DNA of 64,000 bases, from the NCBI RefSeq assembly GCF_019084045.1, contig NZ_JAHRED010000010.1, forward strand, positions 1 through 64,000, read 5' to 3'. Below the pieces are notes generated by a model. That model made no database searches, was not told the origin of the DNA, and worked only from the letters and a program-made list of their open reading frames with translations. Source of the stretch: Paeniglutamicibacter quisquiliarum. Lineage in GTDB: Bacteria; Actinomycetota; Actinomycetes; Actinomycetales; Micrococcaceae. Position numbers and translations under genes: made by a program. Shown here in pieces: positions 5,573 through 43,246 of the stretch; the first letter of the stretch is position 1; each line of letters opens with the position of its first letter.

Positions 5573-6619
5573 ATGATGTCTCAGAGCGCTATTTTCGTGG
5601 ATGCCAGTTTTTTGCTAGCCGTTGGAGGACATCGTGCCTCCGGAACTACGTTGCGTGCAGCCTTTACCGTCAACTATGAAGCTCTGATCGAAGGGATCCT
5701 CAATACTGCCAAGGACTTCAGCGGCTTGGAAAACCTAAGGATCTACTGGTACGACGCAGCCAAGGATGCAATCTTTACAGATCAGCATAAGCGCATTGGC
5801 CTAATTCCCGGTGTGAAGGTAAGACTGGGTCGAATTTCCTTCAACGGTGAGCAAAAGGGCGTTGACCTGAAGCTAGGCCTTGACCTAGTCGGCATCGCCC
5901 GTAACCGCGCTGCCTCGGTTGCCTTCCTCGTTTCTGGTGATGATGATCTCGCCGAGGCCGTCGAAGAGGCACAGGATCTGGGCATGAAAGTCGTTCTTAT
6001 CGGTGTGGAGAAGGCTGACCACCGACTTGGTGTAGCCTCCGTTGCCGAGCACCTTGCCTTGCGCGTGGATAGCATCATTACATTGCCTGAGGAGCTCATA
6101 AAGTCGTCCTTTGTGAAGGCGGTATCGTGGGATGCCGAACATGCGACTCAAACTGCCAATATCGCTAGCGCGGGCGCCACAGCCAAGGAAGTAGTGGCGC
6201 TGTCGGTGCCGGATCCGACGATACCGAAGCCCGGTGCACCGAAGCCTCCTACTCCCGCGTTGCTGAACCAGCGCACCAAGTTTCAATCGCCTGTGCAAGC
6301 GCCGGCACCTGCTGACTACCAACTGGTCTATAGCTCGACCCACCACTCATCCGGATTTACGGGAGGAGCAACCAAGGACCCAAGCGCCATGGAAGTGGCC
6401 ACGGAAGTGGGTAGCAGCGTGGCAACAAATTGGTACGCAAGCACGACTGAAACCGAACTGAAAGAACTACTCGCCGACCGCCCACTTCTACCGCCGGAGA
6501 TCGATCGGGTGCTACTTAAAGATTGCGCCCAACGACTTGGTGAATGGAAGACCGATCTGCAAGATATTCGCCGCGCACTTCGCGTTGCTTTTTGGGACGA
6601 GCTCGATCAGCTCACATAA
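5573..6619 (+). CDS. NYN (PIN-like) domain protein
   Basis: 348 aa. The N-terminal half (about 1-180) has the NYN/PIN-like acidic residues: Asp in IFVDASFLL near the start, KGVDLKLGLDL (about 95) and SGDDDLAEAVEEAQDLG (about 125). This matches the LabA/limkain-type NYN family of Mg-dependent ribonuclease-fold proteins. A Pro/Ala-rich linker (about 225-255) joins a C-terminal part of about 65 residues (ELKELLADRPLLPPEIDRVLL onward) that may be a small helical domain. ATG 5573 is preceded by AGGA at 5562-5565; GTG 5570 is an in-frame alternative. Inference: an RNA-processing or RNA-binding protein; substrate unknown. Confidence 0.8.
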   Translation: MMSQSAIFVDASFLLAVGGHRASGTTLRAAFTVNYEALIEGILNTAKDFSGLENLRIYWYDAAKDAIFTDQHKRIGLIPGVKVRLGRISFNGEQKGVDLKLGLDLVGIARNRAASVAFLVSGDDDLAEAVEEAQDLGMKVVLIGVEKADHRLGVASVAEHLALRVDSIITLPEELIKSSFVKAVSWDAEHATQTANIASAGATAKEVVALSVPDPTIPKPGAPKPPTPALLNQRTKFQSPVQAPAPADYQLVYSSTHHSSGFTGGATKDPSAMEVATEVGSSVATNWYASTTETELKELLADRPLLPPEIDRVLLKDCAQRLGEWKTDLQDIRRALRVAFWDELDQLT

Positions 6620-6663
6620 CTGTCTCCGATGGGCATATTGGAGCCAATCTACGATAGATTTCT

Positions 6664-8220
6664 ATGGTGACTTCTGAGCAGACTCCGTTTTACATCACCA
6701 CGGCCATCTCCTACCCGAACGGCGTTCCCCACATTGGGCACGCCTATGAGGTGATCGCTACCGACGCCATGGCGCGCTTCAAACGCCTAGATGGCTACGA
6801 CGTATTCTTCATGACCGGTACGGATGAACACGGGCAGAAAATGCTGCAGACGGCAGAAAGCGAGGGCATCACCCCGCGCCAGCTCGCGCAACGAAATTCG
6901 GATGCCTTCCAGGCCATGAACGACGAGCTGGGCATTAGCTATGACCGATTCATCCGCACCACGGATTCGGACCACTATGCAGCCGCCCAGGCCATCTGGA
7001 AGCGCATGGAGGCCAACGGTGACATCTACCTCGATAAGTATGCCGGTTGGTATTCGGTCCGTGATGAGGCCTTCCACGCCGAGGTAGACACGGAGGTCCG
7101 AGCAGACGGTCTTCGCTATTCCAAGGAAACTGACACCGAAGTTACCTGGACCGAAGAAGAGTCTTACTTCTTCCGCCTCTCGGCGTATCAGGACAGGCTG
7201 CTCGAGCTTTATAAGTCCGTGCCTGACTTTGGCGCACCCCATACCCGGTTCAACGAGGTGATTCGCTTCGTTGAGCGAGGGCTGGAGGACCTGTCAATTT
7301 CACGCACCACCTTCGACTGGGGGGTTCCGGTACCGGGCAACAAGGACCACGTCATGTACGTGTGGGTCGATGCGTTGACCAACTACCTGACGGGCACTGG
7401 CTTCCCTGATGTTGAATCAGAGTCTTTCAAGAGGTATTGGCCGGCTGACGTCCACGTCATTGGCAAGGATATCTCGCGCTTCCACGCGATCTACTGGCCG
7501 GCCTTCCTGATGTCTGCGAAATTGCCGTTGCCAAAGCGCGTCATGATCCATGGTTTCCTTCACAATAACGGCGTGAAGATGTCCAAGTCCTTGGGCAACG
7601 TTGTAGCTCCTACAGATTTCGTGTCACAGTACGGTCTGGACCAGGTCCGCTACTTCTTCCTGCGAGAGGTACCTTTTGGTGCCGATGGCAGTTACAGCCA
7701 CGACACCATCGTCGGCCGTATGAACTCGGACCTTGCTAACAACCTAGGCAACCTTGCGCAACGTTCTCTATCCATGGTGGCCAATAACTGTGGGGGTTTG
7801 GTTCCCACTCCTGGAGAATTCACCGTAGCTGATCAAGAAATCTTGGCCTATGCGAGCAAGTTGCTCGAGATCTGTCGCGACGCATTCTCGCGTCAAGAAT
7901 TCAGCAAGGCTTTGGAAGCGATCTGGACGGTCTTGGGAGATACCAACGCCTACTTCGCAGATCAGGCGCCGTGGGTGCTGCGGAAAACCGACGTTGCAAG
8001 GATGGAAACCGTTCTTTACGTAACCCTTGAGGTACTTCGCCGTGTCGCGCTCTTGATTCAGCCTGTCATGCCAACTGCCGCCGCTCAGCTTCTTACCCTT
8101 TTGGGACAGGCCGACGGCTCGGCACGCGAACTGACAGAGTTCGATGTCTCATTGGCGCCTACCGCCGTTCTTCCGGCGCCTTTCCCCATCTTTCCGAAAT
8201 ATTACGAAAATGTAAACTAA
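6664..8220 (+). CDS. metG: methionyl-tRNA synthetase
   Basis: Charges tRNA-Met with methionine. The 518 aa carry the class I signatures HIGH (about 24-27) and KMSKS (about 305), and end without the C-terminal dimerisation/tRNA-binding EMAP domain, like other short actinobacterial MetG proteins. The knuckle inserted after about residue 125 has no Cys set, so it is the zinc-less type. ATG start; no strong ribosome site, which may mean a leaderless or weakly initiated message. It is the last clear housekeeping gene before the AT-rich glycan island. Confidence 0.95.
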
Positions 8221-8411
8221 CAAAAATATTAGTTATTTAATTCTGATAGCAAAGAATTGAGGCGAAGATGTGTTCATTTGGGCGCAAACAATATTAAGTG
8301 CAGTGCAGTGCACTTCACTGATCTCGAGGCGCCGACGGATGCCACGATCAAGATAACTTATTCGCCATGGAGTTCTTACGATTCATTGTCAAGATTTGAT
8401 GAACATATTAA
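8221..8411 (+). pseudogene. possible remnant of a small island protein
   Basis: The AT-rich spacer after metG contains an open stretch (about 8230-8411, ending TGA) that reads like protein: ...HLGANNIKCSAVHFTDL... to ...SRFDEHIKC. It has no ATG or GTG start with a ribosome site (only a TTG near 8259). The NNIKCxA stretch also occurs near the C-terminus of the next gene, so this may be a decayed duplicate of it; this could be chance. The drop in GC marks the left edge of the island. Confidence 0.25.
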
Positions 8412-8451
8412 ATGTTGATAAAAACTAATGCAATAGGACTAGGAGATTAAA

Positions 8452-8880
8452 ATGGTGTCTGATTTTGGAGCAATTTCCGGTTATGAAGCCAGAAAATATT
8501 CATTTAAGGTTCCTTCCGGCGCCTCGCCGCAGCGACTAATTGTCGCTGCTCCGGGAAGTGGAGAGAGGGATTTCGTTCTGCTCCCTGCGAAGGGATTGGT
8601 CCCCCTCTATCCGAGCCTGGCGACGATGAGTTTCTCTGCGGGCCTCGATGCCAGATTTTCCTATGTCGGTGGCGACTTAGCCTACGTTGAACTGAATCAA
8701 GAATTCAACAATCGAGGTATCGCATCGACGATGGATTTCGTCATCGTTCGCTGGGCGCGTAAGAGTGTTGTTAACTTTCCTAATAATATTAAATGTCTCG
8801 CAAAAGTCCGTGCTTCAACTCACGGTCCTGCTAGGCATTTTAATGAAATTCTAACGGCCTCAGCCGTGTCGACGCACTAA
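8452..8880 (+). CDS. small unknown protein, family A copy 1
   Basis: 142 aa with no recognised domain, signal peptide or membrane segment; the pattern of alternating hydrophobic residues suggests a beta-rich fold. It resembles the 139-aa protein at 13397-13816: both have a short strand (YSFKVPSG here, MNFELPAD there) and the shared segment S(F/W)SA(G/S)L(D/E)xxFxYV. Both precede a GT2 glycosyltransferase gene and, after it, a family B gene. Strong ribosome site (AGGAG, 8 nt before ATG). First gene of the island's forward operon. Inference: an accessory protein of glycan assembly, perhaps sugar-binding. Confidence 0.65.
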   Translation: MVSDFGAISGYEARKYSFKVPSGASPQRLIVAAPGSGERDFVLLPAKGLVPLYPSLATMSFSAGLDARFSYVGGDLAYVELNQEFNNRGIASTMDFVIVRWARKSVVNFPNNIKCLAKVRASTHGPARHFNEILTASAVSTH

Positions 8881-8895
8881 GGACGCCACTTGCCA

Positions 8896-10266
8896 ATGGA
8901 TCAGGAACAACTACCGCTAATCAGTGTTGTCATGGCCACTCGAAATCGAGCCGGCTTACTTAAACAAAGCATGCATTCAGTTCTCAACCAGACATTTCGG
9001 AATCTCGAACTCGTTGTCGTCGATGACGGATCAACCGATGACACCCGTGACGTGGTTGAGTCGGTGATCGACTCTCGCGTCAAGTACGTTCGGGGGCATG
9101 GCCGCGGAATTTCCGCGGCACGTAATACGGGAGCGGACCACTCCAGGGGACTATGGACGGCAGTTCACGACGACGACGACATTATGTTGCCAACGCGCCT
9201 TGAAGAACAATTGAAGTACGCCGATGACTCAGTCGATTTCATTTACGGCGCCTTCATCAATTTTGACGACGCATCAGGCAAGCTTCAGTTACACCATGGG
9301 CGAAACTACGGTTTTGGCCCTGCGCTGATGACTGGCTTCGCCCCTGGACACTCAACCTGGTTAGTTCGTACCGATTTGATCAGGAAGTTCCGTTATGACG
9401 AGGGCATCGAGAGCGCGGTCGATAACAACTTGACATTCAGGATGTTGCGATCAGGGGTTCGATTCAAGCATAGTGGGGTTATATGCCTTCTGCGGAGAGT
9501 TCATAGCGGCCGTATCACTGACCAAGGCGGAAAAGGGCAGAAATACGTCGCTCAGATGAACCTTGCCTTTATCAAACGCGGATTCAGCGAAGATGAAATC
9601 GATACTTTGAGTAAAGAAGCTCGTCGTGATTGGGGTGCCGTGGACAAAAAGAAGTGGGAAACTAAATTCTTAGGATTCATTCCGGATCATCTTGTAAAGC
9701 GATCGGGCTTCCTATTATCAACGAACTATGTTGAGGATCAACTCGGCACCCTTCAAAGGCTGGCCCTTGACGATGCAAGCGCGATGGATTGGTTTGACTT
9801 CGTTCAGCGATGTGGCAGTGGTGCATCTCAGGACAACGTTACTGTCCGGGTCCGCGAGCGTCCAGAAATCGAATCCTTGCTTCAAGGTATCGAGCTTGAA
9901 CCGAAGATCAGAAGGAAGGACAACCGGACACTGCTCACCGAATTTGCTCTTGGTTGGCTCGACAGTAATCCGGAAGATAATTTTGGCACCTCGCCATATA
10001 TTGCGTTGGTAATCGGTGAATCACGTATGTGGACGGATCAGCAGAAAAAGCTAGCGGTGAACCGTTTTGTTACAGGTCGTGGCAGAGATGAGTTTATGGC
10101 CGGAATAATCGAGTTTAACTCTCTTGAAGCTGCAGTGAGGCTCAATGCCGTTATCTTCACAGCTTCTGATTTCGATTATCGGATCCTTGCAAGCGGTGGA
10201 ATCGACGCAGTGCAAGACAGGGTCTCGATGGAATTGGTGCCTGGCACCGACAGCAAGTCTGTCTGA
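8896..10266 (+). CDS. family 2 glycosyltransferase
   Basis: 456 aa. The N-terminal GT-A domain starts with ISVVMATRNR and has LVVVDDGSTDDT and the metal-binding acidic cluster HDDDD (about 95). After the catalytic domain (about 1-230) there is a C-terminal half without recognised motifs, possibly for acceptor binding or oligomerisation. ATG 8896 is preferred over TTG 8890. It lies 15 bp after family A copy 1 and 14 bp before family B copy 1, so it is co-transcribed with them. It would add a sugar to the surface polymer; donor and linkage cannot be read from sequence. Confidence 0.85.
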   Translation: MDQEQLPLISVVMATRNRAGLLKQSMHSVLNQTFRNLELVVVDDGSTDDTRDVVESVIDSRVKYVRGHGRGISAARNTGADHSRGLWTAVHDDDDIMLPTRLEEQLKYADDSVDFIYGAFINFDDASGKLQLHHGRNYGFGPALMTGFAPGHSTWLVRTDLIRKFRYDEGIESAVDNNLTFRMLRSGVRFKHSGVICLLRRVHSGRITDQGGKGQKYVAQMNLAFIKRGFSEDEIDTLSKEARRDWGAVDKKKWETKFLGFIPDHLVKRSGFLLSTNYVEDQLGTLQRLALDDASAMDWFDFVQRCGSGASQDNVTVRVRERPEIESLLQGIELEPKIRRKDNRTLLTEFALGWLDSNPEDNFGTSPYIALVIGESRMWTDQQKKLAVNRFVTGRGRDEFMAGIIEFNSLEAAVRLNAVIFTASDFDYRILASGGIDAVQDRVSMELVPGTDSKSV

Positions 10267-10280
10267 AAGGTAGCGTAAGA

Positions 10281-10919
10281 ATGCATATCATTTTCCAGCA
10301 GGCAGATGGTGCCGCACGAACAGCACTGTCTGTTGAAGTTGAGACGGGTGAAGTAAACCCGGAACTTGCAAGTTTGTTGTTTGACGTTTCACCCTCAAGC
10401 GTGAGCGCGACACAAACGGCCGTGGCCGGTGCCTTACTTTATGGCTCGGGGTCTCTGAAGCGTCTTAAAGTTAATGGTGAGATGCCTGATACGGCAGTAG
10501 CGGAAATTTCTCAGGTAATCGGATTTCCTGTTGAATCTGATTCCGTCGAGTTAATTGAAAACTCATCTGTGGGCCAGCTGGATTCGCTCTTAAAGGTAAC
10601 GTCGTTACGGGTGTCGTTGGGGCTGGATTTGGCTCGTGAAACTCCTGGGCGCGACGAGACTCGCCTTACACTATTTCCTAGTGAACGTTATTACGGCGGT
10701 CTACTTGGCATAAAAGAAGCGGTAGTTGCCTCTAACGCGTGGCTGCATGCGACTTACGTTGATCCAGCACGAGTATTGGCCGCTGCTGGAGTCTTGTTTG
10801 CAAATGATTTTTTGGCCGAAGGTCTAACCTTACCTGACGTTTCGGGCGAGGAGAGAGATATCATCTCTCGTCTCTGTCGTATTGCTGGGCTTGAAACAAC
10901 ATTCGAGGCCATTGGATGA
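10281..10919 (+). CDS. unknown protein, family B copy 1
   Basis: 212 aa, unrecognised. It is a paralogue of the protein at 15716-16336: both have an AxAGxLxxGS segment in the middle, then L(T/R)(L/I)xP followed by Y, then (V/S)SNA(W/Y), and end in a helix-rich region around EE(R)xxxxSLxxxxGL. The shared blocks are in the same order. No signal or membrane segment. It overlaps the next gene by ATGA. Two copies, each directly after a GT2 gene, suggest a dedicated partner of those enzymes. Confidence 0.65.
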   Translation: MHIIFQQADGAARTALSVEVETGEVNPELASLLFDVSPSSVSATQTAVAGALLYGSGSLKRLKVNGEMPDTAVAEISQVIGFPVESDSVELIENSSVGQLDSLLKVTSLRVSLGLDLARETPGRDETRLTLFPSERYYGGLLGIKEAVVASNAWLHATYVDPARVLAAAGVLFANDFLAEGLTLPDVSGEERDIISRLCRIAGLETTFEAIG

Positions 10920-12733
10920 TTGAAAATGACCAATTGCCAACGGCCGTTATTGTTAGCGACGTTAAGCAGGGTCAGCGATCTGGCCTGCTCGGGATGAGAT
11001 ATGCCCTTGTACGAGCGCTCAGCGATAATAGTGTTCCAACTGTGTTGACACACACCCATGCTCTGCAAAACATCACTGAATCTCTAAAAGACAACACTCG
11101 CATTGTTGTTTTTTGCGAGAGCATCAGGGCACTAAAATCTGGGAGAAAGATATTTGATGGGCAAATGGGTTGCTCATTCGTGCTTATCGTAATTCCGACT
11201 TCCTACGCTGGATGGCGTGAAAAGACGTTGGCTTGGTCCGACGGTCTAAGCGAGGAATGCGATAGAGATACTGTTATCTTCACGGATAGTTCGCTGTCGC
11301 AAAGAATAATTGAGCAGGAACTCGCAAGCTATCGAGCTGATGTCAGGATCTTAGTTCCAGAGTGGCACATCATCGATCCTGATCAGCTTGATTTGACCGA
11401 CGAGTGGGATAACGATCTATTCAATGCCCAAAAGGGTGTCAGCGGCGGCCTCGAAACCAATCATTGGAGTTTTGGTTCTGCTAAGACAGTCGAAAGAGAC
11501 AAAGGCCTGCACTTTTCTGGTACGGATTGGGGTTTTGAGCCACGAAGGGAGCCAAGCCCAGCATCTACAGTTGTAACAACGCCAGATCACTGTCTCGATG
11601 ATCCGGCCCGAACAAGCCAAGTTGCTAACGCGGGACTTGTAGGCCAAATTATGCAGGGGACTTCACTCGTTGGTAAGGCGCTAAATATCCTTGTCCAAGG
11701 TACCAAACTAACTTTCATCGATGAGTTGGGTCGGGATCTGGCGCGTCATTCTGGATCGAATGTAACCTTTGACGAGTGGATACACCTCGGCGCACCATCT
11801 GACTCGAACCGATCTCAAGCACTGCTTGATAGATCGGAAGTCGTCATTGGAGAGTGGGCGCGACCAAATAACGTGTGGATACAAGAGCGTGCCAGGAAGA
11901 ACCAAAAGCTGATTGTTAGGGCTCATCGATACGAAGTTACAACTGATTTTCCACACAAAATCGATATGCAACGATACTATGCTGGTGTGGTGATTGTTCC
12001 TTGGGTAGGTAGGGCCCTAGTTCAACAATTTGACTGGCCCGCTGACAAGATGGTCTATATCCCGAACTACGTTAACTCGCGATACTTTCACAGGGAAAAA
12101 CTCGTCGGCGCGGAGTTCACATTGGGCATTGTTGGGATCACACCGGATCTGAAACGACTGGATTTGGCTTTAGATTTGTTGGAAGAATTGCGATCTGAGG
12201 ACCTGCGCTACACTCTACGGGTCCGTGGAGACCTGCCCCCCGCGCATATCAACTGGGAAAAGCAGCCTCTACAGGCCGAACAATGGGGCAGTGTACTTCG
12301 CCGCTTGGAGTTGAATCCGCTCCTTCGCAATTCAGTTCACTTCGATGCGCCGGGCCGCGACATGGCTACGTGGTATCAGCAAATCGGTGTAATTCTTTCG
12401 ACGTCCGACATTGAAGGGTCTCATGTGGCGTTGGCGGAAGGCATTGCTTCAGGCGCTCTGCCAGTTGCGCGAAATTGGCCTGGCATAGGGACCCTTTGGC
12501 CAGACGACTTTGTTTTTCAGGATCTTGAACGAGCAGCGCAGTGGGTATTGCAATCGAGGGATGCGCACTGGCGACGTATTCAAATGGAACGCTTTCGTGC
12601 CCTGAATTGCTTGGACCAAGATCGCGTTTTGGGCGCATGGTGGGATCTAGTTAATGGTCGATTCGAGTTGGCGCAGAATGCTTTTGGCCCCATCGACTGG
12701 ACAGCTCCACTGTTCGAGACCGTCGAAGCATGA
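10916..12733 (+). CDS. GT-B fold glycosyltransferase (GT4-like)
   Basis: 605 aa. The C-terminal part (about 250-600) is a complete GT-B-like module: ALNILVQG, VVIGEWARPNNVW, YIPNYVNSRYF, then LGIVGITPDLKRLDLALDLL, and a donor-site-like region STSDIEGSHVALAEGIASG. It is clearly homologous to the last module of the 1,470-aa protein at 35182-39594 (shared VGI(T/V)P(D/E)xKRLD(L/V)ALDLL). The N-terminal 200 residues look like another Rossmann-type half-domain without known motifs. ATGA overlap with family B copy 1. Confidence 0.78.
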   Translation: MIENDQLPTAVIVSDVKQGQRSGLLGMRYALVRALSDNSVPTVLTHTHALQNITESLKDNTRIVVFCESIRALKSGRKIFDGQMGCSFVLIVIPTSYAGWREKTLAWSDGLSEECDRDTVIFTDSSLSQRIIEQELASYRADVRILVPEWHIIDPDQLDLTDEWDNDLFNAQKGVSGGLETNHWSFGSAKTVERDKGLHFSGTDWGFEPRREPSPASTVVTTPDHCLDDPARTSQVANAGLVGQIMQGTSLVGKALNILVQGTKLTFIDELGRDLARHSGSNVTFDEWIHLGAPSDSNRSQALLDRSEVVIGEWARPNNVWIQERARKNQKLIVRAHRYEVTTDFPHKIDMQRYYAGVVIVPWVGRALVQQFDWPADKMVYIPNYVNSRYFHREKLVGAEFTLGIVGITPDLKRLDLALDLLEELRSEDLRYTLRVRGDLPPAHINWEKQPLQAEQWGSVLRRLELNPLLRNSVHFDAPGRDMATWYQQIGVILSTSDIEGSHVALAEGIASGALPVARNWPGIGTLWPDDFVFQDLERAAQWVLQSRDAHWRRIQMERFRALNCLDQDRVLGAWWDLVNGRFELAQNAFGPIDWTAPLFETVEA

Positions 12734-12779
12734 ATAAGGCGAACATGAATGCCAACACAGAATAGCAAGGATGGGAAAA

Positions 12780-13397
12780 ATGAACGAGCAATTAGAAAGC
12801 GTCTCGTTTGATGCTTACGCGGAAATCGACTACTTGAAAAGTAGGCTCATAGAGCTTGAGCGCACAGTTCGATATTTGTCGGACTCCCGAGCGAAACAGG
12901 ATCCAGCAGGCCGACCAGCTTTTAAACGTCCCCCGTACGTAACTGTTGGTGAAGGATGCAATATAGGTAACGGGGTGACTTTTTCGGCCACTGAAAGAAC
13001 GCCGATCCTTGTGGGTGACCGAACTAAGATCCTTCGAGGAGGTGAATTGCTGGGTCCCTTGACCATCGGTTCACGAGTCTTCATCAACCGTGACGCGTAT
13101 ATACGTTCTGGCGTGACGATTGAGGACGGCGTTTCCCTTGGCCCATTCGTGCGACTCATCACCGACTCGCACCACATTGGACAGGCAAGTCACCGGGCTG
13201 GACCGGGTAAAACTGAGGCTATCCTGATAGGTGAAGGTGCTTGGCTCGGAGCCGGAGTGACGGTCCTGGGTGGCGTAACTATTGGGGCGGGATCAATCGT
13301 GGCTGCAGGTGCACTAGTTAGGGACAACGTTCCCCCGAATTCGGTCGCAGCTGGAGTGCCAGCGAGAGTTATTCGCCAGCTGGAGGAACCGCAGTAG
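12780..13397 (+). CDS. left-handed beta-helix acyltransferase
   Basis: 205 aa. A short N-terminal coiled coil (EIDYLKSRLIELERTVRYL) precedes a run of hexapeptide repeats (about 55-200: TVGEGCNIGNGVTF, ILVGDRTKI, LTIGSRVFI, VSLGPFVRL, ending IGAGSIVAAGALVRDNVPP and VAAGVPARVI). The SHHIG region supplies a likely catalytic His. The family transfers acetyl groups from acetyl-CoA to sugar hydroxyls or amines. Start at 12780 is chosen because AGGATGGGA lies at the right distance; ATG 12771 sits almost on the ribosome site. The stop overlaps the next start. Likely O-acetylates the island's glycan. Confidence 0.85.
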   Translation: MNEQLESVSFDAYAEIDYLKSRLIELERTVRYLSDSRAKQDPAGRPAFKRPPYVTVGEGCNIGNGVTFSATERTPILVGDRTKILRGGELLGPLTIGSRVFINRDAYIRSGVTIEDGVSLGPFVRLITDSHHIGQASHRAGPGKTEAILIGEGAWLGAGVTVLGGVTIGAGSIVAAGALVRDNVPPNSVAAGVPARVIRQLEEPQ

Positions 13398-13816
13398 TGT
13401 TAGGCAATCTTCCTTGCGCCACAACAATGAATTTCGAACTGCCAGCTGACTGTGATAGTGCTGTGATCGTAGCTTCCTTTGACCGCACCCTTGCGGACCA
13501 AGAATACATAATCACATTGGGTTTTGCAACTAAAGAAACTTACTCGTCGATCCAGATATCTGAGCTCTCATGGTCTGCGAGCCTTGAATCGGCATTTGTT
13601 TATGTTTCTGCATTGCCTTTAAAGACACCTTATAGAAGCCCGCGTTTTGAGATTCCTGCCGGTGCGCGGAGAATGCAAGTGCACTGTCGGAATTGGAAGC
13701 CTCAGGGCTCCGGCCCGGAGCAATCTCTTAGGGGACTTGCGGTTGAGGCATTTGTGATAGGGCCTGCCCTATCCACTAGTCTGAGCCGGGTCATTCTTCC
13801 TGGAAAGAAGATCTGA
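13397..13816 (+). CDS. small unknown protein, family A copy 2
   Basis: 139 aa, beta-rich in appearance, no known domain. Paralogue of the 142-aa protein at 8452: SWSASLESAFVYV here aligns with SFSAGLDARFSYV there, at similar positions. GTG start overlaps the preceding stop by one base, with GGAGGA about 9 nt upstream. It stands immediately before a GT2 gene (1-bp gap), as copy 1 does. Confidence 0.65.
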   Translation: MLGNLPCATTMNFELPADCDSAVIVASFDRTLADQEYIITLGFATKETYSSIQISELSWSASLESAFVYVSALPLKTPYRSPRFEIPAGARRMQVHCRNWKPQGSGPEQSLRGLAVEAFVIGPALSTSLSRVILPGKKI

Positions 13817-13817
13817 C

Positions 13818-15719
13818 ATGGATGTATGCGAAGTATCCGTTGTTATTGGCTTTCGAAACTGGGGCCAAGAGCGATTACGTCTAGCGCTTGGTTCGCTTCA
13901 AGCAGCCTTTGGTACGTGTAATGGCGAGGTAATTTTAGTTGACTATGGTTCGACGGATCCCGAGCCGGCACGTGCGGCCGCGGAAATCACTGGTTCCAGG
14001 CTCGTGAGGATTGACAATGTGACTGTTTGGTCGCGTTCAGAAGCCTTAAACGCTGGGTTTGCCCAAGCCCGAGGGAGGCTGTTCATTTCAACGGACGCGG
14101 ACATGTTGTTTGCCCCGGGCACTTTGGAGACAATTCATACTTGGTGGCAGGCTTCAGGATCTAGCGCTCTCTACCTACAATGTCGTGATCTTCCGCCGTC
14201 ACTTACAGTCCAAAGTCTATCCACTGGTCACGTTAATTGGAAAGAACTTGAGGCGGTGTCACGACTAAGGCCCAGGTGGGGCGTCGGAGGCATGATGGCA
14301 ATTGATCGCCATTCATACGGTGTTCTTCGAGGTTTCGACGAGAGAATGCACACCTATGGCCGGGAAGATATGGACTTTGCCGCACGTGCACGCCGTGCCG
14401 GCCTGCGAATGGTTTGGGTAGAGGATCAAAAGGCGCGCATGTATCACATGTGGCATCCATCCTCGGCTGATGCACTACAAGATTCTCCAGCGGCTATCGC
14501 CGCACTAAAGCAAAACCGGAGTATTTTCGATAATGATGGAACAGTGGCCCGAAATCGAACAATTTGGAACAATTCGTTACCTGAAGCGCCGCCTCTAATC
14601 AGCATCTGTCTCCTCAGTGGCTATGAATCAATTAAGGATGGCAGGCTAGCAGACACCATAGCTTTGCAAAACATCCGTGACGTTGAGGTATTGGTTTCGG
14701 CAACGGGAGGACAGGTTCAGGCGGCAACGATTGAGTCGTTGGTGCGAGAAGTGGACTGCCAAGTTGGCGATCTAGATTCCATGTTGGAGGTTGCCGCGGG
14801 GAAATACACTATTGTTCTGGACTCTAGCTACTGCCTCCCCGAAACGTTTTTAGAGGAGCTATTGGTCGATGCGCAGGGTTCAGTGCGAGCGGTCGTACCA
14901 CGTCAGCTAGCCTTCGACCCTGAAACGAACGGGTTCGGATTCATGCCAATCGGGGATGAAAATCGAACAAATACACTTCTCGGTGTTCTCGCACAAACGG
15001 ACATACTCCGTTCCTTGTCTCGCGAACAGAATATCTCAACCATTAATCCAGGATTCTTGGAAATATTGAATAGTCTCGGTGCTGAAGTTTTATTCAGCGA
15101 GAATGCCATTTGTTTGGTCGAGGCAAAGGAGTCAGTTCAATCTTCGATTCGCCGATACGAAATTCCTTCGGAAATAAGACGGATACTATGGCCCTTGTTC
15201 TCCGATAGCGATACCAGCAGAATTGCTAAAATCACCGGGGGACCCGTCGAAACACTTGCGAGCGAGAAATTTGACGGTTCTTTAGAATTTTCTGTGGTCA
15301 AGCGAGACGATGAAATCACTTCCAGGCTAGGCGTCCTCGGAAACGCTTCGCTGACTGATCTTGCCAGATTGCGAAACTTGGGATGTGATTTTACCGTTGA
15401 TCTGGAACCGATCGATCAGGCGGAAAACTCGGGACGTGGAATCCGGTGGATAATTTCTGAGGCAATGTTCGCTATTGGGCAATCGGATGTGATTCCGCAC
15501 GCAGTAATTGTCGTTGAAGGTGAACATGATGGGCGTGGGTTCGCAACTCCTGATGCACGTCCTTTGTGCATCAAAGTTGAGCGATTGGGATTAGATGACC
15601 ATGAAAAGGCGACGCTTTTCTTTTCCAATAATGCACTGGAAACCAGTAATATTTTGGAGTTCGCAGACGGAAGAGTCCGATTTATATTAAGTCAACCGGA
15701 TTGGGAAATTGGATCATGA
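13818..15719 (+). CDS. large family 2 glycosyltransferase
   Basis: 633 aa. The N-terminal GT-A domain has VSVVIGFRNW, VILVDYGSTD and STDADMLF (metal-binding DAD). It is followed by a galactosyltransferase-type C-terminal element, GGMMAIDRHSYGVLRGFDER, and GREDMDFAARARRAG, as in chondroitin-polymerase-like GT2 enzymes. Residues from about 260 to 633 are a second, GT-like but motif-poor half (FTVDLEPID and similar strands), possibly a degenerate second GT domain. It overlaps family B copy 2 by ATGA, so the two proteins are translationally coupled. Confidence 0.82.
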   Translation: MDVCEVSVVIGFRNWGQERLRLALGSLQAAFGTCNGEVILVDYGSTDPEPARAAAEITGSRLVRIDNVTVWSRSEALNAGFAQARGRLFISTDADMLFAPGTLETIHTWWQASGSSALYLQCRDLPPSLTVQSLSTGHVNWKELEAVSRLRPRWGVGGMMAIDRHSYGVLRGFDERMHTYGREDMDFAARARRAGLRMVWVEDQKARMYHMWHPSSADALQDSPAAIAALKQNRSIFDNDGTVARNRTIWNNSLPEAPPLISICLLSGYESIKDGRLADTIALQNIRDVEVLVSATGGQVQAATIESLVREVDCQVGDLDSMLEVAAGKYTIVLDSSYCLPETFLEELLVDAQGSVRAVVPRQLAFDPETNGFGFMPIGDENRTNTLLGVLAQTDILRSLSREQNISTINPGFLEILNSLGAEVLFSENAICLVEAKESVQSSIRRYEIPSEIRRILWPLFSDSDTSRIAKITGGPVETLASEKFDGSLEFSVVKRDDEITSRLGVLGNASLTDLARLRNLGCDFTVDLEPIDQAENSGRGIRWIISEAMFAIGQSDVIPHAVIVVEGEHDGRGFATPDARPLCIKVERLGLDDHEKATLFFSNNALETSNILEFADGRVRFILSQPDWEIGS

Positions 15720-16336
15720 GGATAATTTCAGAAACAGAATCTTCTGGTCGATTTTCATTGCTTACTGAAGTCGAAGCATATGATGCAGTCACGCCGATTA
15801 GTCGATTCTTTGTCGACTACGTTCCGTCAGAGTTGAATCCGGAGCGGGTTGCACTTGCTGGATATCTGGCCTTTGGTTCTTGGATCAGCGGTGGCGTAAA
15901 ATTTCCTGAAGCGATTTGTCCCGAGCTCGCTTCCGCTATTGAGGACGACGCTTTCCCGGCGCGTGTACGCCCGGAGAAAATTGACTACACGCCAAAGCGT
16001 TTGGCTGGCGGAGAGTATGAAGCGCAGGTTCTTGTTGGCCCTGCGGCTACTGAATCCGAGACGAGTCGATCCTTGAGAATTCTTCCCCACGGAAAGTATG
16101 TAGGAGCACTTCGGCAGGAGGGTCATTTCCAAGTGTCTTCGAACGCATATGTATTGGCCGGTTGCGTCCCTAAAGAAGCAGAGCATCGACCAATGCTCGC
16201 AGTTGCTGTTTTGGCAGCGGAGGAATTTGGGATAGACAAATTGCGATTTCAGGCAATTATTAGCGAGAATGAACGAAGGCACTTGCAGTCACTCTTGGGT
16301 GCCGTTGGACTCGGTCTTACGATTTCGTTGACTTGA
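15716..16336 (+). CDS. unknown protein, family B copy 2
   Basis: 206 aa from ATG 15716, which overlaps the upstream stop (ATGA); the further upstream in-frame start is disfavoured. Same architecture as the protein at 10281: ALAGYLAFGS in the middle, LRILPHGKYVGAL, then VSSNAYVLAG, and a C-terminal NERRHLQSLLGAVGLGL. No known domain, no signal peptide. Its coupling to a GT2 gene for the second time in 8 kb argues for a function tied to that enzyme class. Confidence 0.65.
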   Translation: MRIISETESSGRFSLLTEVEAYDAVTPISRFFVDYVPSELNPERVALAGYLAFGSWISGGVKFPEAICPELASAIEDDAFPARVRPEKIDYTPKRLAGGEYEAQVLVGPAATESETSRSLRILPHGKYVGALRQEGHFQVSSNAYVLAGCVPKEAEHRPMLAVAVLAAEEFGIDKLRFQAIISENERRHLQSLLGAVGLGLTISLT

Positions 16337-16437
16337 GTGCCTCACGCTTGGCCTAATTCAAATAGTTTTTTGAGGACTTCAAGAAACCAAAAATGATCAT
16401 TTTTTCGATCAGTCCAAACAGTAAGAAAAGAGATTTG

Positions 16438-17751
16438 ATGAAAATTTCAGTAGTCGGATGCGGCTATCTTGGCGCCGTTCATGCAGCTGCCATGGCGAAA
16501 CTTGGCCACGATGTAATCGGCATTGATGTGGACGCTAGTAAGATTGCAGACCTTCAAGCCTCGAAGGCGCCTTTCTTTGAGCCCGGCCTGCCGGAATTAC
16601 TCAGTGAAGCGCAGAAATCTGGATCACTTTCATTCTCCACGAACATGGCTGATGCAGCTGATGCGGATGTTCATTTTCTGTGTGTAGGGACGCCGCAGCG
16701 GAAAGGTGAAAACGCAGCTGATCTTAAGTACGTAGATGCGGGATTTGCATCAATCACGCAGCATATCAAGCCTGGGGCGCTCATTGCGGGAAAATCCACT
16801 GTTCCCGTTGGAACGGCCGAGCGTCTTGCCGATAAGTTGAGGGATATTCAGCCTGAAGCAATCCTTGCATGGAATCCTGAGTTCCTCCGCGAGGGTCACG
16901 CTGTAAAAGACACTCTGGCGCCGGACAGACTGATATATGGTGTTTCCGATGATTCACAGGGAGCTCGTGCGATCGAACTATTGGACGAGGTGTATCGGCA
17001 GATTTTGGATGCCGACACGCCACGGCTGACAATGGGATATGCGACCGCCGAACTCGTGAAAACGTCAGCGAATTCATTCCTGGCAACGAAGATTAGTTTC
17101 ATAAATGCAATGGCGGAGATTTGTGAAGCCACAGGAGCTGATGTCAAAGTTCTGGCCGACTCCATAGGTCTCGACGACCGAATTGGAAGAAAGTTCTTGA
17201 ATGCGGGTGTTGGATTTGGCGGTGGGTGCCTGCCGAAGGATATTCGTGCCTTTATGGCCCGTGCAGGGGAACTTGGCGCTGATCAAGCTTTAACTTTTCT
17301 AAGGGAAGTCGATGCAATTAACATGCGTCGACGAGAACGAGTCGTCGAGCTCGTGCGAGAAGAACTTGGCGGCTCACTATTAGGCCAGCGCATTACGGTG
17401 CTGGGAGCGGCATTCAAACCCAATTCTGACGATGTAAGAGACTCGCCAGCACTGTCGGTTAGCGCCCAGCTGCAGTTGCTCGGTGCAATCGTAACTGTGA
17501 CAGATCCAGAAGCGCTGTCCAATGCACGTAAACGTTTCCCAGAATTACAGTATGAGCAAGATCTAACGGAGGCAATCAAGGGTGCGGAAGCACTAATTTT
17601 GTTGACCGAGTGGGAGGATTACACGGAAGCTGATCCTGTTGCTTGGTCTCAAATCGTCAGTCGACCTTTGATTTTGGACGGTCGAAATGTACTTGATATT
17701 GATAAATGGCGAGCGGCCGGTTGGCATGTGAAGGCAATGGGCCGACCGTAG
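16438..17751 (+). CDS. ugd: UDP-glucose 6-dehydrogenase
   Basis: Oxidises UDP-glucose to UDP-glucuronate with two NAD. 437 aa: N-terminal NAD domain starting KISVVGCGYLG, central helix, and the catalytic Cys in GFGGGCLPKDIRA (about 263), then the C-terminal UDP-binding domain with FKPNSDDVRDSP. The start at 16438 matches the conserved family N-terminus; the ATG at 16393 would add 15 unrelated residues. It is the last gene of the left forward operon and is followed by a strong terminator. Supplies UDP-GlcA to the glycan; the 59-kb wecC product is a relative with a different substrate. Confidence 0.93.
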   Translation: MKISVVGCGYLGAVHAAAMAKLGHDVIGIDVDASKIADLQASKAPFFEPGLPELLSEAQKSGSLSFSTNMADAADADVHFLCVGTPQRKGENAADLKYVDAGFASITQHIKPGALIAGKSTVPVGTAERLADKLRDIQPEAILAWNPEFLREGHAVKDTLAPDRLIYGVSDDSQGARAIELLDEVYRQILDADTPRLTMGYATAELVKTSANSFLATKISFINAMAEICEATGADVKVLADSIGLDDRIGRKFLNAGVGFGGGCLPKDIRAFMARAGELGADQALTFLREVDAINMRRRERVVELVREELGGSLLGQRITVLGAAFKPNSDDVRDSPALSVSAQLQLLGAIVTVTDPEALSNARKRFPELQYEQDLTEAIKGAEALILLTEWEDYTEADPVAWSQIVSRPLILDGRNVLDIDKWRAAGWHVKAMGRP

Positions 17752-17780
17752 AGGAGTTCGCTTAGCCTGTATGAACAGAT

Positions 17781-17827
17781 CCGCCTCCGACCACCTTTTC
17801 GTAATTGGAGGTCGGAGGCGGTTTCGT
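17781..17827 (+). terminator. rho-independent terminator of the left operon
   Basis: Perfect 12-bp stem, CCGCCTCCGACC (17781-17792) with GGTCGGAGGCGG (17810-17821), 17-nt loop, followed by TTTCGTT. It lies about 30 bp after ugd. Confidence 0.8.
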
Positions 17828-17966
17828 TCTGCCGCGCAAATGTTGCTGGCCATGCTAACGGAGAGTCTTTTCTGGTATTTCCCGACTGGCAAGTATGCAT
17901 GTGCTGAACCGTGGTCCACGAATCCGGCTTGAAGGTAATCGCCACAAGTATCCAGATGGAGCCGCC

Positions 17967-18158
17967 TGCCAAATAGCCTTTGCTGGTACCGGTGTTCTGG
18001 CGATCTGGTGTGTAACCTCGCAACATGGACACCAAATCGCGTCACTTCGTAGACACCTTTTCATGGCCCTTGACAGACAACCGATCTCATGACTTCGTGT
18101 TGCCGGAACGGGAGTACCAATAAGCCGGAACAGGAGTGCCCTCTGGCGCTATGTAGCA
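17967..18158. mobile_element. MITE-like element with IS21-type ends, copy 1
   Basis: 192 bp without a gene. The left end TGCCAAATAGCC...GGTACCGGTGTTC and the right end (GGAACAGG...CTGGCGCTATGTAGCA) are inverted copies of each other and closely resemble the ends of the IS21 element at 40555-43241, including repeated GTTCCGG-type boxes. It is flanked by a perfect 6-bp direct repeat GCCGCC (17961-17966 and 18159-18164), the expected target duplication. The interior matches copy 2 (GTGTGTAA, CTCGCA, ACTTCGTAGACA), not the intact IS, so the parent is another relative. Confidence 0.7.
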
Positions 18159-18659: not shown

Positions 18660-19475
18660 TTAGGTGATCGACTCGAGCCTAACAGCCTCAATCCTAGTCA
18701 ATTCGGCGCGCTCGCTCCACTGCTCTATTAGCGCGAGTGCCTCCAGCTGTGCCAAAGCGGCATGGCCGGATACATGGTTGGTCAGCAGCATTCTCTGCTG
18801 ACCAACCCTAGGCAAAGCAGCCATAGCAACATCCGCCATGAAATCCTGCTGAATGGCGATACTCATATCGGTCTCGTTCGAAACCAGCAAGAACGGCGGA
18901 ATGAGATTCGACTTCTTAAACCGGTCACGCACATCTACCATTTCGGGGTGGTCGATCCTATGTTCAGAAAACGTCTTTCCTAGCACCCTATTCTCCATCG
19001 CCTTGATAGATCCCGGTGAAGGCCATTGGGAGACATCAATTTGTGGAATTTCGGCGATGGCACTCGATCCAGGAAGCAAAGAAGCCATCCCGAGCGCCCC
19101 AAACCCACCTAGGGACGAGCCATAGAACAAGATTTGATCATTCGAAAGCCCCAGACGAATAACTTGCTCTTGTACCATGACAGCCATCTCTTCGAGCAGA
19201 TCGTCGGTCGGGTGCAAGTACCACGCCCCGCGAATTTCGTCGTCAAGGCCCAAAGCAGGATCAGAGAGCGCGAGGACGTGTTGATTCGGCATGACTGTGT
19301 GCCAGTTCCACCGAGAAAGCAGTTTCCAACGACGGATGCCAGTACCAGTTTGTGCGGCCGGCATGAAACACACTAGTCTTTCGGCAGAATCCCGGCGAGC
19401 GAGAGCACCATGAATGGATAAACCAGTATTGGATTTCTTTTCGAGTGTCTCTACGACGGTCCCCAATGCATGCAT
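18660..19475 (-). CDS. alpha/beta-hydrolase-fold protein
   Basis: 271 aa. The nucleophile elbow is YGSSLGGFGAL (Ser at about 150), preceded by a strand LVCFMPAA and followed by an acidic region and HVSGHAAL near the C-terminus, the expected site of the catalytic His. Similar elbows occur in Asp2-like and esterase-type proteins of glycan clusters. No signal peptide, so it is likely cytoplasmic. Its closest relative in the window is the hydrolase gene split by the IS21 element (40312/43861), which has GSSAGGFGAL. Inference: acyl transfer to or removal from sugars. It has no forward partners and stands alone between decayed DNA. Confidence 0.75.
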   Translation of the reverse strand: MHALGTVVETLEKKSNTGLSIHGALARRDSAERLVCFMPAAQTGTGIRRWKLLSRWNWHTVMPNQHVLALSDPALGLDDEIRGAWYLHPTDDLLEEMAVMVQEQVIRLGLSNDQILFYGSSLGGFGALGMASLLPGSSAIAEIPQIDVSQWPSPGSIKAMENRVLGKTFSEHRIDHPEMVDVRDRFKKSNLIPPFLLVSNETDMSIAIQQDFMADVAMAALPRVGQQRMLLTNHVSGHAALAQLEALALIEQWSERAELTRIEAVRLESIT

Positions 19476-28999: not shown

Positions 29000-29065
29000 A
29001 GCCCATCTCATGCGCCGTAAATTAAAATATTGTTCTATATCAACTCTTATGGGGGACGAAAACAA

Positions 29066-32000
29066 ATGGCTAAAACATTCGATCAATATTCTGATCTAGA
29101 TCTCTTGCTTGGTTCAGGAATCTTTGATCGCCATTGGTACGCAGCCCAGAGCGACAGATACTTTTCTAGCTGGCATGCAGCCGCGGAGGATTTTCTCGCG
29201 TTCGGCATGTCGAAGGAAATGTCCCCCCACCCACTCATGGACGTCCGGTCTTGGCCTGGACATTTGCGCGCGGCCTGGAAGGATGGAAAGCTCGGCCCAG
29301 TCTTAAACTGGTTCCGACGTCCACTTGAAGGCCAGCCGTCTCTTGGACCGCTTCTTGTCCCCCGCATGCTCAATACTAGTGGCCATGTTATTTCCTCTCG
29401 GGATGTGGCCTCTCACGCGGGAGGCACTTTAGGATGGCTTTTAGAACATGCTCCCGGCGACTATGTCGTTGACTTTCCTGAAGGACATTGGGTCTGGGAA
29501 AATGTCCTGAGTTCGAAATCGAAAATCGTCGCTACAATCAAAACCCAAACCTACAAGTCACGACCTCGTATGAAAGACCAGTGGAACAAACCCGCAGAAG
29601 ACGTATGGCGGGGAAAAGTTAAGTCTATTAGTCTGCCCTCGTCGGATAACGGCGAGCCGCTCGTTAGTATCATCATGCCGGCCTGGAATCGTGCAGACGT
29701 CATAGCAAAGGCTATCCGGTCTGTGCAGCGTCAAACTGCTGATTTTTGGGAGTTGATCGTTGTTGATGACGGATCTACGGACGCGACACGTGAAGTCGTT
29801 CGTCTCTTAGCTTCCTCCGATTCTCGCATTTCATTGCTTTCCGCGGAGCACGGCGGGGTGTGCGCTGCCCGAAACCTTGGACTCAACCATGCAACTGGTC
29901 GTTGGGTTTCTTTCCTCGACACCGATAACGAATGGCCTGAGGAATACCTTGAACTGTCGATCAAGGGTGCAATCGAATCTAACGCGCAAGCGGTCTATGC
30001 TGGCTTGGAACTTCATAATGGAGGAAAAGTTTCTTATAGGGCCTACCAAGGGGCACTAGACGAACTGATGATCGTGAACCATATCGATCTCAATGTTTTA
30101 ACGGTCGAACGAACCCTGGCCGTTGAGGCCGGGGGTTTTGACGAAGGGCTTAAACGCTGGGTAGATCACGACTTCGCTATTCGCATCGCAAAGCTCTCGG
30201 TCCCTCGTCTTTTGCCGTTCATAGGTTGCAAGTACTGGGACGATCGTGAAGCTGAAACCCGGATTACCACGTCCGAATCGGATTCGTGGCAATGGGTTGT
30301 GCTGGGGAAGAACTTAGTCGATTGGCCTGCTATGGAAGAACGCGCATCGGTCCCGGGACGCGTGACGATTTCGATGCCCGTGTATCAGGATTGGTTGATG
30401 ACCGTCCGAGCGGTACGAAGCGTTCTTGATCGCTCAGGTTCAGTTGATATTGAGGTGGTGGTAGTGGACAACGGATCCGCCTACCACTACAGTGTGGTCC
30501 TTGGCCTGCTACTTGAATCTGATCCACGAGTAAAATACGTACGCCTACCGCGCAATATGAACTTCGCCGTTGGCTCGAATTATGGCGCCTACCTTGGAAC
30601 TGGCGAATTCACATGTTTCCTGAACAACGACACCATTGTCCGTGATGGCTGGTTGGAACCGTTGCTGGAGAGATTGCAGAATCCAGAGGTGCTCGCAGTG
30701 CAGCCACTCCTGCAGTATCCGGATGACTCCATCCAGACAGCTGGCACAGTCTTCATGGCCGAGAACCGGCTGCCGGGTCACTTCCTTGCCAATCACCCTC
30801 CAGAAGATGCAGCAACTGTCGCGGACAGCGAATTTTCGGCCATTACTGGTGCTTGCATGCTGTGGCGAACTAAGGACGTGGCAAGCCTGAGAGGTTTTGA
30901 TCCATTCTTCGTCAACGGAATGGAGGATATCGACCTATGTCTACGAGCAATCGAACAGAATGGCGGCTACTTTGCTGTTGACCCCCGTTCTAAGGTTACG
31001 CACCATGAAAGCAAAACGCCCGGGCGTGGGCGAAATATCGTCTCTAACCGAAGTGCGTTTATGAAGCGGTGGGCAGGTCGGCTTCCCTCACCGGAAACGG
31101 ACAAGTACGTTCGCGCAGGGTTCGAATTGGCGCACGTGGGTGGCGACAACAACTTCATCCCGTCTCCACGGCCGATCGTTACGCGTGCTAAGCAGCCTGA
31201 AAATCAGCGCTGGGGCATTCGTCTGGCATCGACGGGCGGCGCAAATGGCGATAAGTGGGGCGATACCCACTACGTCAATTCCCTGGCCGATGCTCTGCGA
31301 GGAGTCGATTGTGAAGTCGTGACATACCGTCACGGTCATAATGTCGACCGAGATCAGGTATATGACGACGTTAACCTTGTTATTCGAGGACTGGACAAAA
31401 TATCGCCAATTCCGGGAACGGTAAATGTCCTTTGGGTGATCAGCCATCCTGAAGACGTTTCTGTTGAAGAGGTTCAAGCCTTCGATCTCGTCTACGCGTC
31501 TTCATTGTCTTGGTCTGCGGAAATGACTGAACTCAGTGGGCGTGAAGTTAAGCCTCTTCTTCAGGCTACAGATTCTAGTCGCTTCCATTTGCCAGCTCCC
31601 GGAACAGATGACAGATCACGGCCAACGACCTTCGTAGGGGCTAATACGCACAACCGTGACCGAAAGGTGGTGTCGGACGCGTTAGTCTCCGGAATTGATC
31701 TCCGCATCATTGGCCACGGCTGGGCTGATGTTTTGGAGCCACGGATGCACGAGGCCGAGGGAATCAAGAATGAACTGCTGGGGGATTTTTACAGGTCTTC
31801 GAAGCGCGTCCTGGCGGACCACTGGACGGACATGGCAGAACAAGGCTTTATCCAGAACCGCATCTTTGATGCAATCGCTTGTGGAACACCGGTAGTCTCT
31901 GACCAAGTTTCTGGACTCACAGACGTTTTCGGCAGCATGGTGCAGGTCTATGAGTCGCTCGATGAGCTCCGCTGGTTGTGCAGCCCGGAAGGGCTCACTG

Positions 32001-32146
32001 CTTTTGGTACGGGAGAAGAACGGGCCGCCCAAGCTCGTCAAGTATTAGAACAGCATTCTTTCGAAGCCAGAGCAAAAACGTTGACTCAAGATGTTCGCGA
32101 GTGGTTATTGCGGAGGAATTTGAAGTCAGCCGTGTACAAGGTCTGA
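29066..32146 (+). CDS. three-domain glycosyltransferase (GT2-GT2-GT4)
   Basis: 1,026 aa from ATG 29066, with GGGGGA 8 nt upstream; the earlier ATG at 29030 lacks a ribosome site. Residues about 1-150 contain FDRHWYAAQSD...FLAFGMSKEMSPHPLMD, a repeat seen at the front of rhamnan and capsule GTs. GT2-A (about 196-400): VSIIMPAWNRA, LIVVDDGSTDAT, FLDTDNEWP. GT2-B (about 430-680): VEVVVVDNGSA-like strand, FLNNDTIV, ITGACMLWR, GMEDIDLCLRA. GT-B module (about 713-1015): RLASTGGANGDKWGD, NRIFDAIACGTPVVSD. No membrane segments. Such a protein could add two or three different sugars in order. Confidence 0.85.
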   Translation: MAKTFDQYSDLDLLLGSGIFDRHWYAAQSDRYFSSWHAAAEDFLAFGMSKEMSPHPLMDVRSWPGHLRAAWKDGKLGPVLNWFRRPLEGQPSLGPLLVPRMLNTSGHVISSRDVASHAGGTLGWLLEHAPGDYVVDFPEGHWVWENVLSSKSKIVATIKTQTYKSRPRMKDQWNKPAEDVWRGKVKSISLPSSDNGEPLVSIIMPAWNRADVIAKAIRSVQRQTADFWELIVVDDGSTDATREVVRLLASSDSRISLLSAEHGGVCAARNLGLNHATGRWVSFLDTDNEWPEEYLELSIKGAIESNAQAVYAGLELHNGGKVSYRAYQGALDELMIVNHIDLNVLTVERTLAVEAGGFDEGLKRWVDHDFAIRIAKLSVPRLLPFIGCKYWDDREAETRITTSESDSWQWVVLGKNLVDWPAMEERASVPGRVTISMPVYQDWLMTVRAVRSVLDRSGSVDIEVVVVDNGSAYHYSVVLGLLLESDPRVKYVRLPRNMNFAVGSNYGAYLGTGEFTCFLNNDTIVRDGWLEPLLERLQNPEVLAVQPLLQYPDDSIQTAGTVFMAENRLPGHFLANHPPEDAATVADSEFSAITGACMLWRTKDVASLRGFDPFFVNGMEDIDLCLRAIEQNGGYFAVDPRSKVTHHESKTPGRGRNIVSNRSAFMKRWAGRLPSPETDKYVRAGFELAHVGGDNNFIPSPRPIVTRAKQPENQRWGIRLASTGGANGDKWGDTHYVNSLADALRGVDCEVVTYRHGHNVDRDQVYDDVNLVIRGLDKISPIPGTVNVLWVISHPEDVSVEEVQAFDLVYASSLSWSAEMTELSGREVKPLLQATDSSRFHLPAPGTDDRSRPTTFVGANTHNRDRKVVSDALVSGIDLRIIGHGWADVLEPRMHEAEGIKNELLGDFYRSSKRVLADHWTDMAEQGFIQNRIFDAIACGTPVVSDQVSGLTDVFGSMVQVYESLDELRWLCSPEGLTAFGTGEERAAQARQVLEQHSFEARAKTLTQDVREWLLRRNLKSAVYKV

Positions 32147-39594: not shown

Positions 39595-40311
39595 AAGTGT
39601 TACCAAGTCTCCACAGTCTACGTCGTCAGTATGTTCGTTACACGTCTATCTTAACAGGCTGTAGGCGCTTGCCTAATATCGTAACTGGAGTCAATACGAG
39701 GGATATCTGGCATATAGGTTCGGTTCTGGTGTCATTAACCGTCAATGCAGGATTCCTACGGCTGGATGTGTTGAACCAACATTTTCGGTGCCCATGAACC
39801 AGATGAAGTTCTTGGCTAGGCAGCTTTGGATTAAGTTGCCTTTGGTCAACATGCGTCGGGTCTCGGGCCCTCCGCCGGCGCAGGGTAAGGAATCAAGATT
39901 TTTTCCTTGAGGAAAGATCTTCATTTGATAGTGGCTCCAAGGTTGTTGTAACTCCCGAATATCGGGGGAGTTGCAACTGTGAGCTAGAACTCAAGAAACT
40001 CGCAGCAGAGGACATCAAATGGATCGACCACGTTTACGTTAACCAAAACATCTATCGATGACGGATATTGTTGTAGACGGTACGCCTCGGGCCGTGCTGA
40101 ACACCCAATTGCGGCGCCTAAAGTCAGAGAGCCTGCATATAATCCAGATACCACACTAGGTCCAGCTTCGGGGATTGTTAGAACTGCCGCGCCACTACCT
40201 TGCCTCATCAAAAGGCAGTCGTTAGAGCGTTGGGCCCCAAGCAATGTATTAGTGTTTATGTTGTCGATTATTAGATATTCTTGATTTGACCAAAATTATT
40301 TAGGAGATTCA
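39595..40311. other. 717-bp gene-free region, promoters
   Basis: Separates the divergent giant GT and the split hydrolase. No gene supported. The last 60 bp before 40312 are AT-rich and likely hold the promoter of the split gene, with AGGAG 7 nt before its ATG. Confidence 0.45.
39945..39977. terminator. hairpin in the spacer
   Basis: GTTGTAACTCCC (39945-39956) pairs with GGGAGTTGCAAC (39966-39977) apart from one G-T, loop 9 nt. No T-run on either side, so it could be an attenuator, an operator or an insertion scar rather than a terminator. Confidence 0.35.
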
Positions 40312-43095: not shown

Positions 43096-43134
43096 GTATT
43101 GGCCAAGAGCCCCTCGACGGCTCTTGGCCAATAC
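43096..43134. terminator. 16-bp perfect hairpin after istB
   Basis: GTATTGGCCAAGAGCC (43096-43111) pairs perfectly with GGCTCTTGGCCAATAC (43119-43134), 7-nt loop. It lies 50 bp after istB and inside the IS, just before the right terminal repeats. Without a T-run it may terminate weakly or block read-through from outside. Confidence 0.65.
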
Positions 43135-43246
43135 GACAAAAGCCGGACGCACTACCACTTCGCCGGAAATCCACTACCGCCTGCCCGGAGTGGACACTAC
43201 CAGGTCGTCGGAACAGCACTACCAAGAGGCGCTATTTCGCACCTCC

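Follow-up and report, generated by a model that had tools for sequence, protein, structure and literature searches.

According to a review (PMC10939387), class II synthases contain two independent GT-2 modules, a pair of single-action PmHAS mutants was as efficient in vitro as the wild-type bifunctional enzyme, and class II hyaluronan synthases are known only from Gram-negatives. The donors reported for KfoC are UDP-GlcA and UDP-GalNAc (PMC7764085). A further uronate-containing polymer, assembled from ManNAcA and glucose, is made by the teichuronic acid synthetase (TUAS) of Micrococcus luteus, which is described in PMC3005890 as a 440 kDa octamer of 54 and 52.5 kDa subunits, that is, two different glycosyltransferases in one complex.

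Here, a locus of Paeniglutamicibacter quisquiliarum was compared with these systems. It lies in a stretch of 64,000 nucleotides (the window) on contig C2 of a 4.44-Mb genome. Its genes A, GT2 and B form a conserved cassette around a polymerase of a known kind, and the split form of that polymerase is the surprising part. No title or abstract describing such a triad was found in searches of a literature library covering few subscription papers.

Layout of the locus

Two A-GT2-B triads were located at 8452-10919 and 13397-16336, with the genes of GTBx and of a hexapeptide transferase between them (Table 1). The places, sizes and order of the genes given in the initial annotation were borne out by the coordinates. 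The A2 gene has a GTG start and overlaps by one base with the TAG of the upstream hexapeptide transferase gene. The GTBx protein was matched to the Pfam family Glyco_trans_1_4 at an E value of 0.0026, a match that fell short of the cut-off, and its position was kept in two other loci (L026, from a congener, and L027). The last listed ORF was putatively assigned to a UDP-glucose dehydrogenase (UGD) from its sequence. The G+C content was 49-53% in the five 2-kb blocks covering 8001-18000 and 56-59% in the four preceding blocks.

Table 1. Features of the triad locus in the window.
Feature	Position	Strand	Description	Basis or remark
A1	8452-8880	+	Family A protein, 142 aa	Ortholog in L026 and gene position
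GT2a	8890-10266	+	D2-only half of the double-GT2 enzyme	TTG start; in-frame ATG at 8896
B1	10281-10919	+	Family B protein, 212 aa	BLASTP against B2
GTBx	10916-12733	+	Probable GT-B fold glycosyltransferase, 605 aa	Overlaps B1 by 4 bp
Hexapeptide transferase	12771-13397	+	Hexapeptide-repeat acyltransferase-like protein, 208 aa	Lies after GTBx and before A2
A2	13397-13816	+	Family A protein, 139 aa	Predicted beta sandwich
GT2b	13818-15719	+	D1 motifs intact, second half probably a degenerate D2	Motifs and D1 profile
B2	15716-16336	+	Family B protein, 206 aa	ATGA overlap with GT2b; confident alpha/beta model
UGD	16393-17751	+	UDP-glucose dehydrogenase (presumed)	Adjoins B2

Elsewhere in the window, two small alpha/beta-hydrolase-like proteins were encoded at 18660-19475 (-) and 43124-43861 (+), and relatives of the former were observed near the triad in several loci. 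Two very large multi-domain glycosyltransferases of 1038 aa (29030-32146, +) and 1474 aa (35182-39606, -) were free of transmembrane segments by a crude scan. The proteins of 452 aa (32288-33646, +) and 606 aa (44421-46241, -) had no Pfam match at an E value of 0.01. An ORF pair at 40700-43046 (+) looks like IstA/IstB of the IS21 type.

Two complementary halves of a double-GT2 enzyme

The typical GT2 enzyme of this family was a single protein of ~700 residues with two GT2 domains, a GT2/GT7C-like D1 bearing DxD plus GxED and a D2 bearing a DDDD motif. In GT2a, the motifs DDDD, GHSTW, VDNN and LRRVH were present and D1 was absent. In GT2b, the D1 motifs STDADM and GREDMD were intact, and DSSYCLP was found where D2 has DDDD. 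GT2a scored 351 bits against the D2 profile and GT2b scored 367 bits against the D1 profile, each profile containing the protein concerned; no match at 30 bits was recorded for GT2a against the D1 profile or for GT2b against the D2 profile. The D2 remnant in GT2b gave a weak signal (E 0.0055; 1e-6 and 0.05 for the orthologs in L026 and L027, respectively), and the second half of this protein is, judging by its sequence, probably a worn D2. The triads had previously been regarded as a repeated functional unit. The triad does occur twice, but its GT2 enzymes are complementary halves rather than copies of one enzyme.

The motifs were surveyed in 31 GT2 proteins, namely the 30 compared proteins, the window's two included, and the second glycosyltransferase of the L033 locus. 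Both modules were present in 17 (among them the L065 protein, where DDDN replaces DDDD), the D1 site was lost in six, D2 was lost in four, and another four consisted of D2 only. Every genome with a D1-only enzyme (the window, L026, L027 and L033) encoded a D2-only partner in the same gene run (4/4). The division in L026 and L027 was as in the window, and an eight-gene order was common to all three. At L033 (10007-13090, -), the order was A, D2 glycosyltransferase (51% identical to GT2a), D1 glycosyltransferase (55% identical to GT2b) and B, which is a split within a single triad. Since the gene order is the same in three of the four genomes with the split and the L033 B protein groups with B2 in the B tree, the split may represent one event rather than four.

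Double-GT2 proteins with an intact D2 and a D1 devoid of DxD and GxED were observed in L037, L039, L040, L064, L120 and L123. The stretches carrying these six proteins showed no further D1 match exceeding 30 bits, hence a two-sugar polymer would not be universal among the triads.

The best PDB match of a double-GT2 protein (L029) was the E. coli K4 chondroitin synthase KfoC (E 2e-28). The two were collinear over residues 154-457 and 273-574, respectively, which cover the end of the first module and the second module. GT2a also matched KfoC (E 7e-23). GT2b alone gave no KfoC match at an E value of 0.01, and it was 46% identical to the L029 protein over D1. A 19-residue hydropathy scan of A1, GT2a, B1, A2 and GT2b revealed 0 transmembrane segments, which fits a peripheral class II synthase.

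Families A and B and their association with GT2

Neither family had been recognized in the initial annotation, and searches of Pfam and NCBIfam agreed, giving 0 families for A1, A2, B1 and B2 at E values up to 1. A PDB sequence search yielded no protein matching A or B, the one hit for A being a chance-level hit to another protein.

The two A proteins had been described as alike on account of a shared SxSAxLxxxFxYV motif. Their pairwise alignment was not significant (best E 0.22), so the motif alone is no proof of kinship, but a link was obtained through profiles, clear for A2 and, for A1, weak in itself and made via its orthologs. A profile of the A genes of other loci, from which A1, A2 and their orthologs were excluded, matched A2 at an E value of 4e-7, the A1 orthologs in L026 and L027 at 2e-5 and 0.003, and A1 itself at 0.24. 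When the A2 group was added to the other loci, A1 was matched at 0.038; combining the other loci with the A1 group gave a profile that matched A2 at 6e-8. As A1 responds weakly to profiles that exclude it, its membership of family A rests on the orthologs and on gene position. The A genes of L030, L037 and L121, like the second glycosyltransferase of L033, were found by a six-frame search and were absent from the simple ORF list; in alignment A6, the L061 sequence starts inside the gene.

The predicted structure of A2 was a beta sandwich (pLDDT 83, pTM 0.77). Carbohydrate-binding jelly-rolls (CBM4, CBM6, CBM16 and the CBM of FjoAcXE) were among its best Foldseek matches, with probabilities up to 0.92. 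The matches were weak, since none of the best 50 of 1397 had an E value better than 0.015 or a TM score above 0.41. Pfam gave no match for A2. One residue, a Ser, was invariant in 21 family A sequences.

The kinship of the B proteins, also proposed earlier, was confirmed directly, since B1 and B2 were aligned by BLASTP at an E value of 7e-6 (24% identity over 216 columns). A confident alpha/beta model was predicted for B2 (pLDDT 90, pTM 0.89) with an internal repeat (26-87/139-202), and the two halves of B aligned in register with a P of 6e-4, against 0.2 for the reversed control (12 sequences in both alignments). The fold search with B2 against the PDB and the viral BFVD returned nothing at E < 0.09 among the best 50 of 630 and the best 50 of 530 matches. 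The Asn of SNA and two Asp were invariant or near-invariant. An EPSP-synthase-like repeat fold, suggested by eye, was rejected, as similarity to the MurA/AroA profile was absent (hhalign P 0.75; based on 12 of 30 fetched loci, cut-outs with a stop or of ≤380 aa dropped). A recent tandem duplication of the triads was likewise rejected as unlikely, because B1 and B2 were not sisters in the B tree, the deep forks of which are uncertain.

A, GT2 and B were found together in 25 of 26 loci, picked nearly all by a B match, so that the set tells little about such GT2 enzymes without B. The usual order was A-GT2-B; L043 and the second L042 module had the permuted order GT2-B-A. In the listed loci, A and B flanked GT2, and the genes often overlapped by a few bases. 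The earlier suggestion that A and B are dedicated partners of the GT2 enzymes is therefore well supported, and their homologues do lie beside GT2 genes in other genomes. That the proteins form a new glycan-assembly complex, also suggested earlier, is an inference. The exception, L065 (4873-7888) of the alphaproteobacterium Microvirga terrestris, contained GT2-B, the latter with a C-terminal extension, and no detected A. In L042 (3275-10389), two double-GT2 triads were arranged in tandem, separated by a UGD fragment. Its ORF 6565-7074, which starts with the UGD fragment and is not an A, was included in the A profile behind the table of 26 loci; the profiles of the exclusion test and of the family search described below do not contain it. 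Ten of the 26 loci lay outside the A profile, one of them, L057, being closely related to a member of it. Nine of the ten gave an A match at E values of 1e-27 to 1e-4, and L065 was the miss. The loci L055, L056, L058-L061 and L063 were repeats of genomes already counted and stood outside the 26.

A search of 295 genomes of the family with B2 gave 22 genomes, of which three (E 0.003-0.007) were judged false, leaving 19. Two of the three false ones (G077, locus L044, and G238, locus L045) scored weakly and had nothing GT2-like nearby within 19 kb, and the third (G018), with a stop inside the B match, was dropped on score alone. The ORF of L044 looks RibA/B-like. G395 (L122) was left out of the counts, its stretch ending about 1 kb past the B match. 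The A profile recovered the identical 19 genomes, which was expected because it contained A genes from 17 of them; the informative result was that no genome had A without B. The counts are lower bounds, since G106 of the same sample carries both A (E 2e-6 on closer inspection) and B and escaped both searches, being found by a B profile. The triad also occurred in other families of the order (L120, L121). It was sparse in wider samples, with at least 8 of 396 genomes for the order, 2 of 345 for the class and 1 of 296 for the phylum (the window's genome included in each; 7 to 10 candidates scored per genome). A pattern scan of genome contigs gave 11 loci.

A full-length UGD was located within 8 kb of the triad in 14 of the 26 loci and was an immediate neighbour in nine, in one case on the opposite strand and in one upstream of A. 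No UGD at ≥40% identity was found in 11 loci, several of which are short stretches, and L042 had the fragment. The window's UGD is a second copy, 56% identical to the other one, which lies elsewhere in the genome.

Proposed function and comparison with known synthases

It was proposed, with a probability of about 0.6, that the two triads and the UGD encode a divided, soluble two-sugar polymerase of the class II type (KfoC/PmHAS-like) that uses UDP-glucuronate, with A and B as its dedicated subunits. The product would probably be a two-sugar polymer built by a multi-part enzyme. In the fused relatives, D1 and D2 would add two different sugars alternately to the growing chain end, D2 being placed where KfoC has its second module. 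In the window, the D1 activity would reside in GT2b and the D2 activity in GT2a, both in the cytosol, and the linked UGD suggests UDP-glucuronate as the donor fed to one of the modules. The jelly-roll-like A would most likely hold the glycan acceptor, and B, with its internal two-fold repeat, would most likely serve as a scaffold joining GT2 to a partner or to the membrane. No exporter was seen among the window's ORFs by crude hydropathy on an imperfect ORF list, which counts against this explanation.

A broader version was considered only tentatively, at clearly less than even odds. The locus may represent a Gram-positive glycosaminoglycan-type synthase holoenzyme, in which a KfoC-like two-module polymerase depends on two subunits from new families, A being a jelly-roll that holds the glycan and B having a new fold. 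The polymerase would have been split in a few lineages into half-enzymes that reassemble into one alternating polymerase; in the window, each half would have a separate A and B.

Another explanation, which we regard as less likely, is that the two GT2 enzymes act independently, each transferring a single sugar with the A and B of its triad, and so add two residues to a lipid-linked repeat unit polymerized elsewhere (Wzy-like or ABC), the likeness to a split polymerase being incidental. It would agree with one intact module per GT2 in the window, with GTBx and an acyltransferase-like gene separating the triads in the manner of a repeat-unit cluster, and with the six single-triad proteins in which one module is intact. 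However, D1-only enzymes were always paired with D2-only ones in the four genomes, though possibly through one event, both modules are fused in 17 proteins, and, among solved structures, the one closest to the fused form is a polymerase.

Far less probable is a glycoprotein-modifying system of the accessory Sec type, with Asp1-3-like helpers and glycosyltransferases. The neighbour at 18660-19475 showed a weak likeness, below cut-offs, to Asp2 and XcbB/CpsF, A2 is a predicted small beta sandwich, and the fold matches of B2 at chance level included accessory secretion protein 1 (E 0.33 and 0.74; probability 0.04-0.06). This system was rejected on the SecY2 score, since the sole match to the SecY2 profile in the genome reached 170.2 bits against a cut-off of 249.6. 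The profile also matched below the cut-off in 9 of 14 control genomes, so the match looks like an ordinary SecY; moreover, no Asp3 was present among the best 50 of 1397 fold matches listed for A2. It is equally improbable that A and B are enzymes, for example of sugar modification, instead of subunits. The conserved Asn and Asp residues of B would suit catalysis, but A keeps a single invariant residue, and both proteins flank GT2, often with overlapping genes.

If the divided polymerase is real, class II-type two-sugar polymerases would be placed in Actinobacteria, two unnamed protein families would gain a defined partner, and a natural split of a bifunctional polymerase would make each activity separately testable, with single-module and double-GT2 relatives allowing direct comparison.

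The proposed enzyme resembles TUAS in making a uronate polymer by a two-enzyme complex, reported for TUAS and proposed from genes for the window. This likeness is one of description, and TUAS differs in its octamer of 54/52.5 kDa subunits and in its sugars. Neither the PmHAS mutant pair nor the TUAS complex proves the case of the window. Other close known systems are KfoC (PDB 2z86/2z87) and the Pasteurella class II hyaluronan and chondroitin synthases, with which a typical family member shares two GT2 modules in the same order. A supply of UDP-glucuronate, a further likeness, is suggested in the triad loci by the linked UGD. In KfoC, a leader precedes the first module, which starts from about residue 94, whereas D1 of the L029 protein begins at the N-terminus without a leader. 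Two modules on one polypeptide, the mark of class II, were present in 17 of the 30 compared proteins and absent in the window, where the modules are on separate proteins and, unlike in the Gram-negative synthases, the additional families A and B accompany them.
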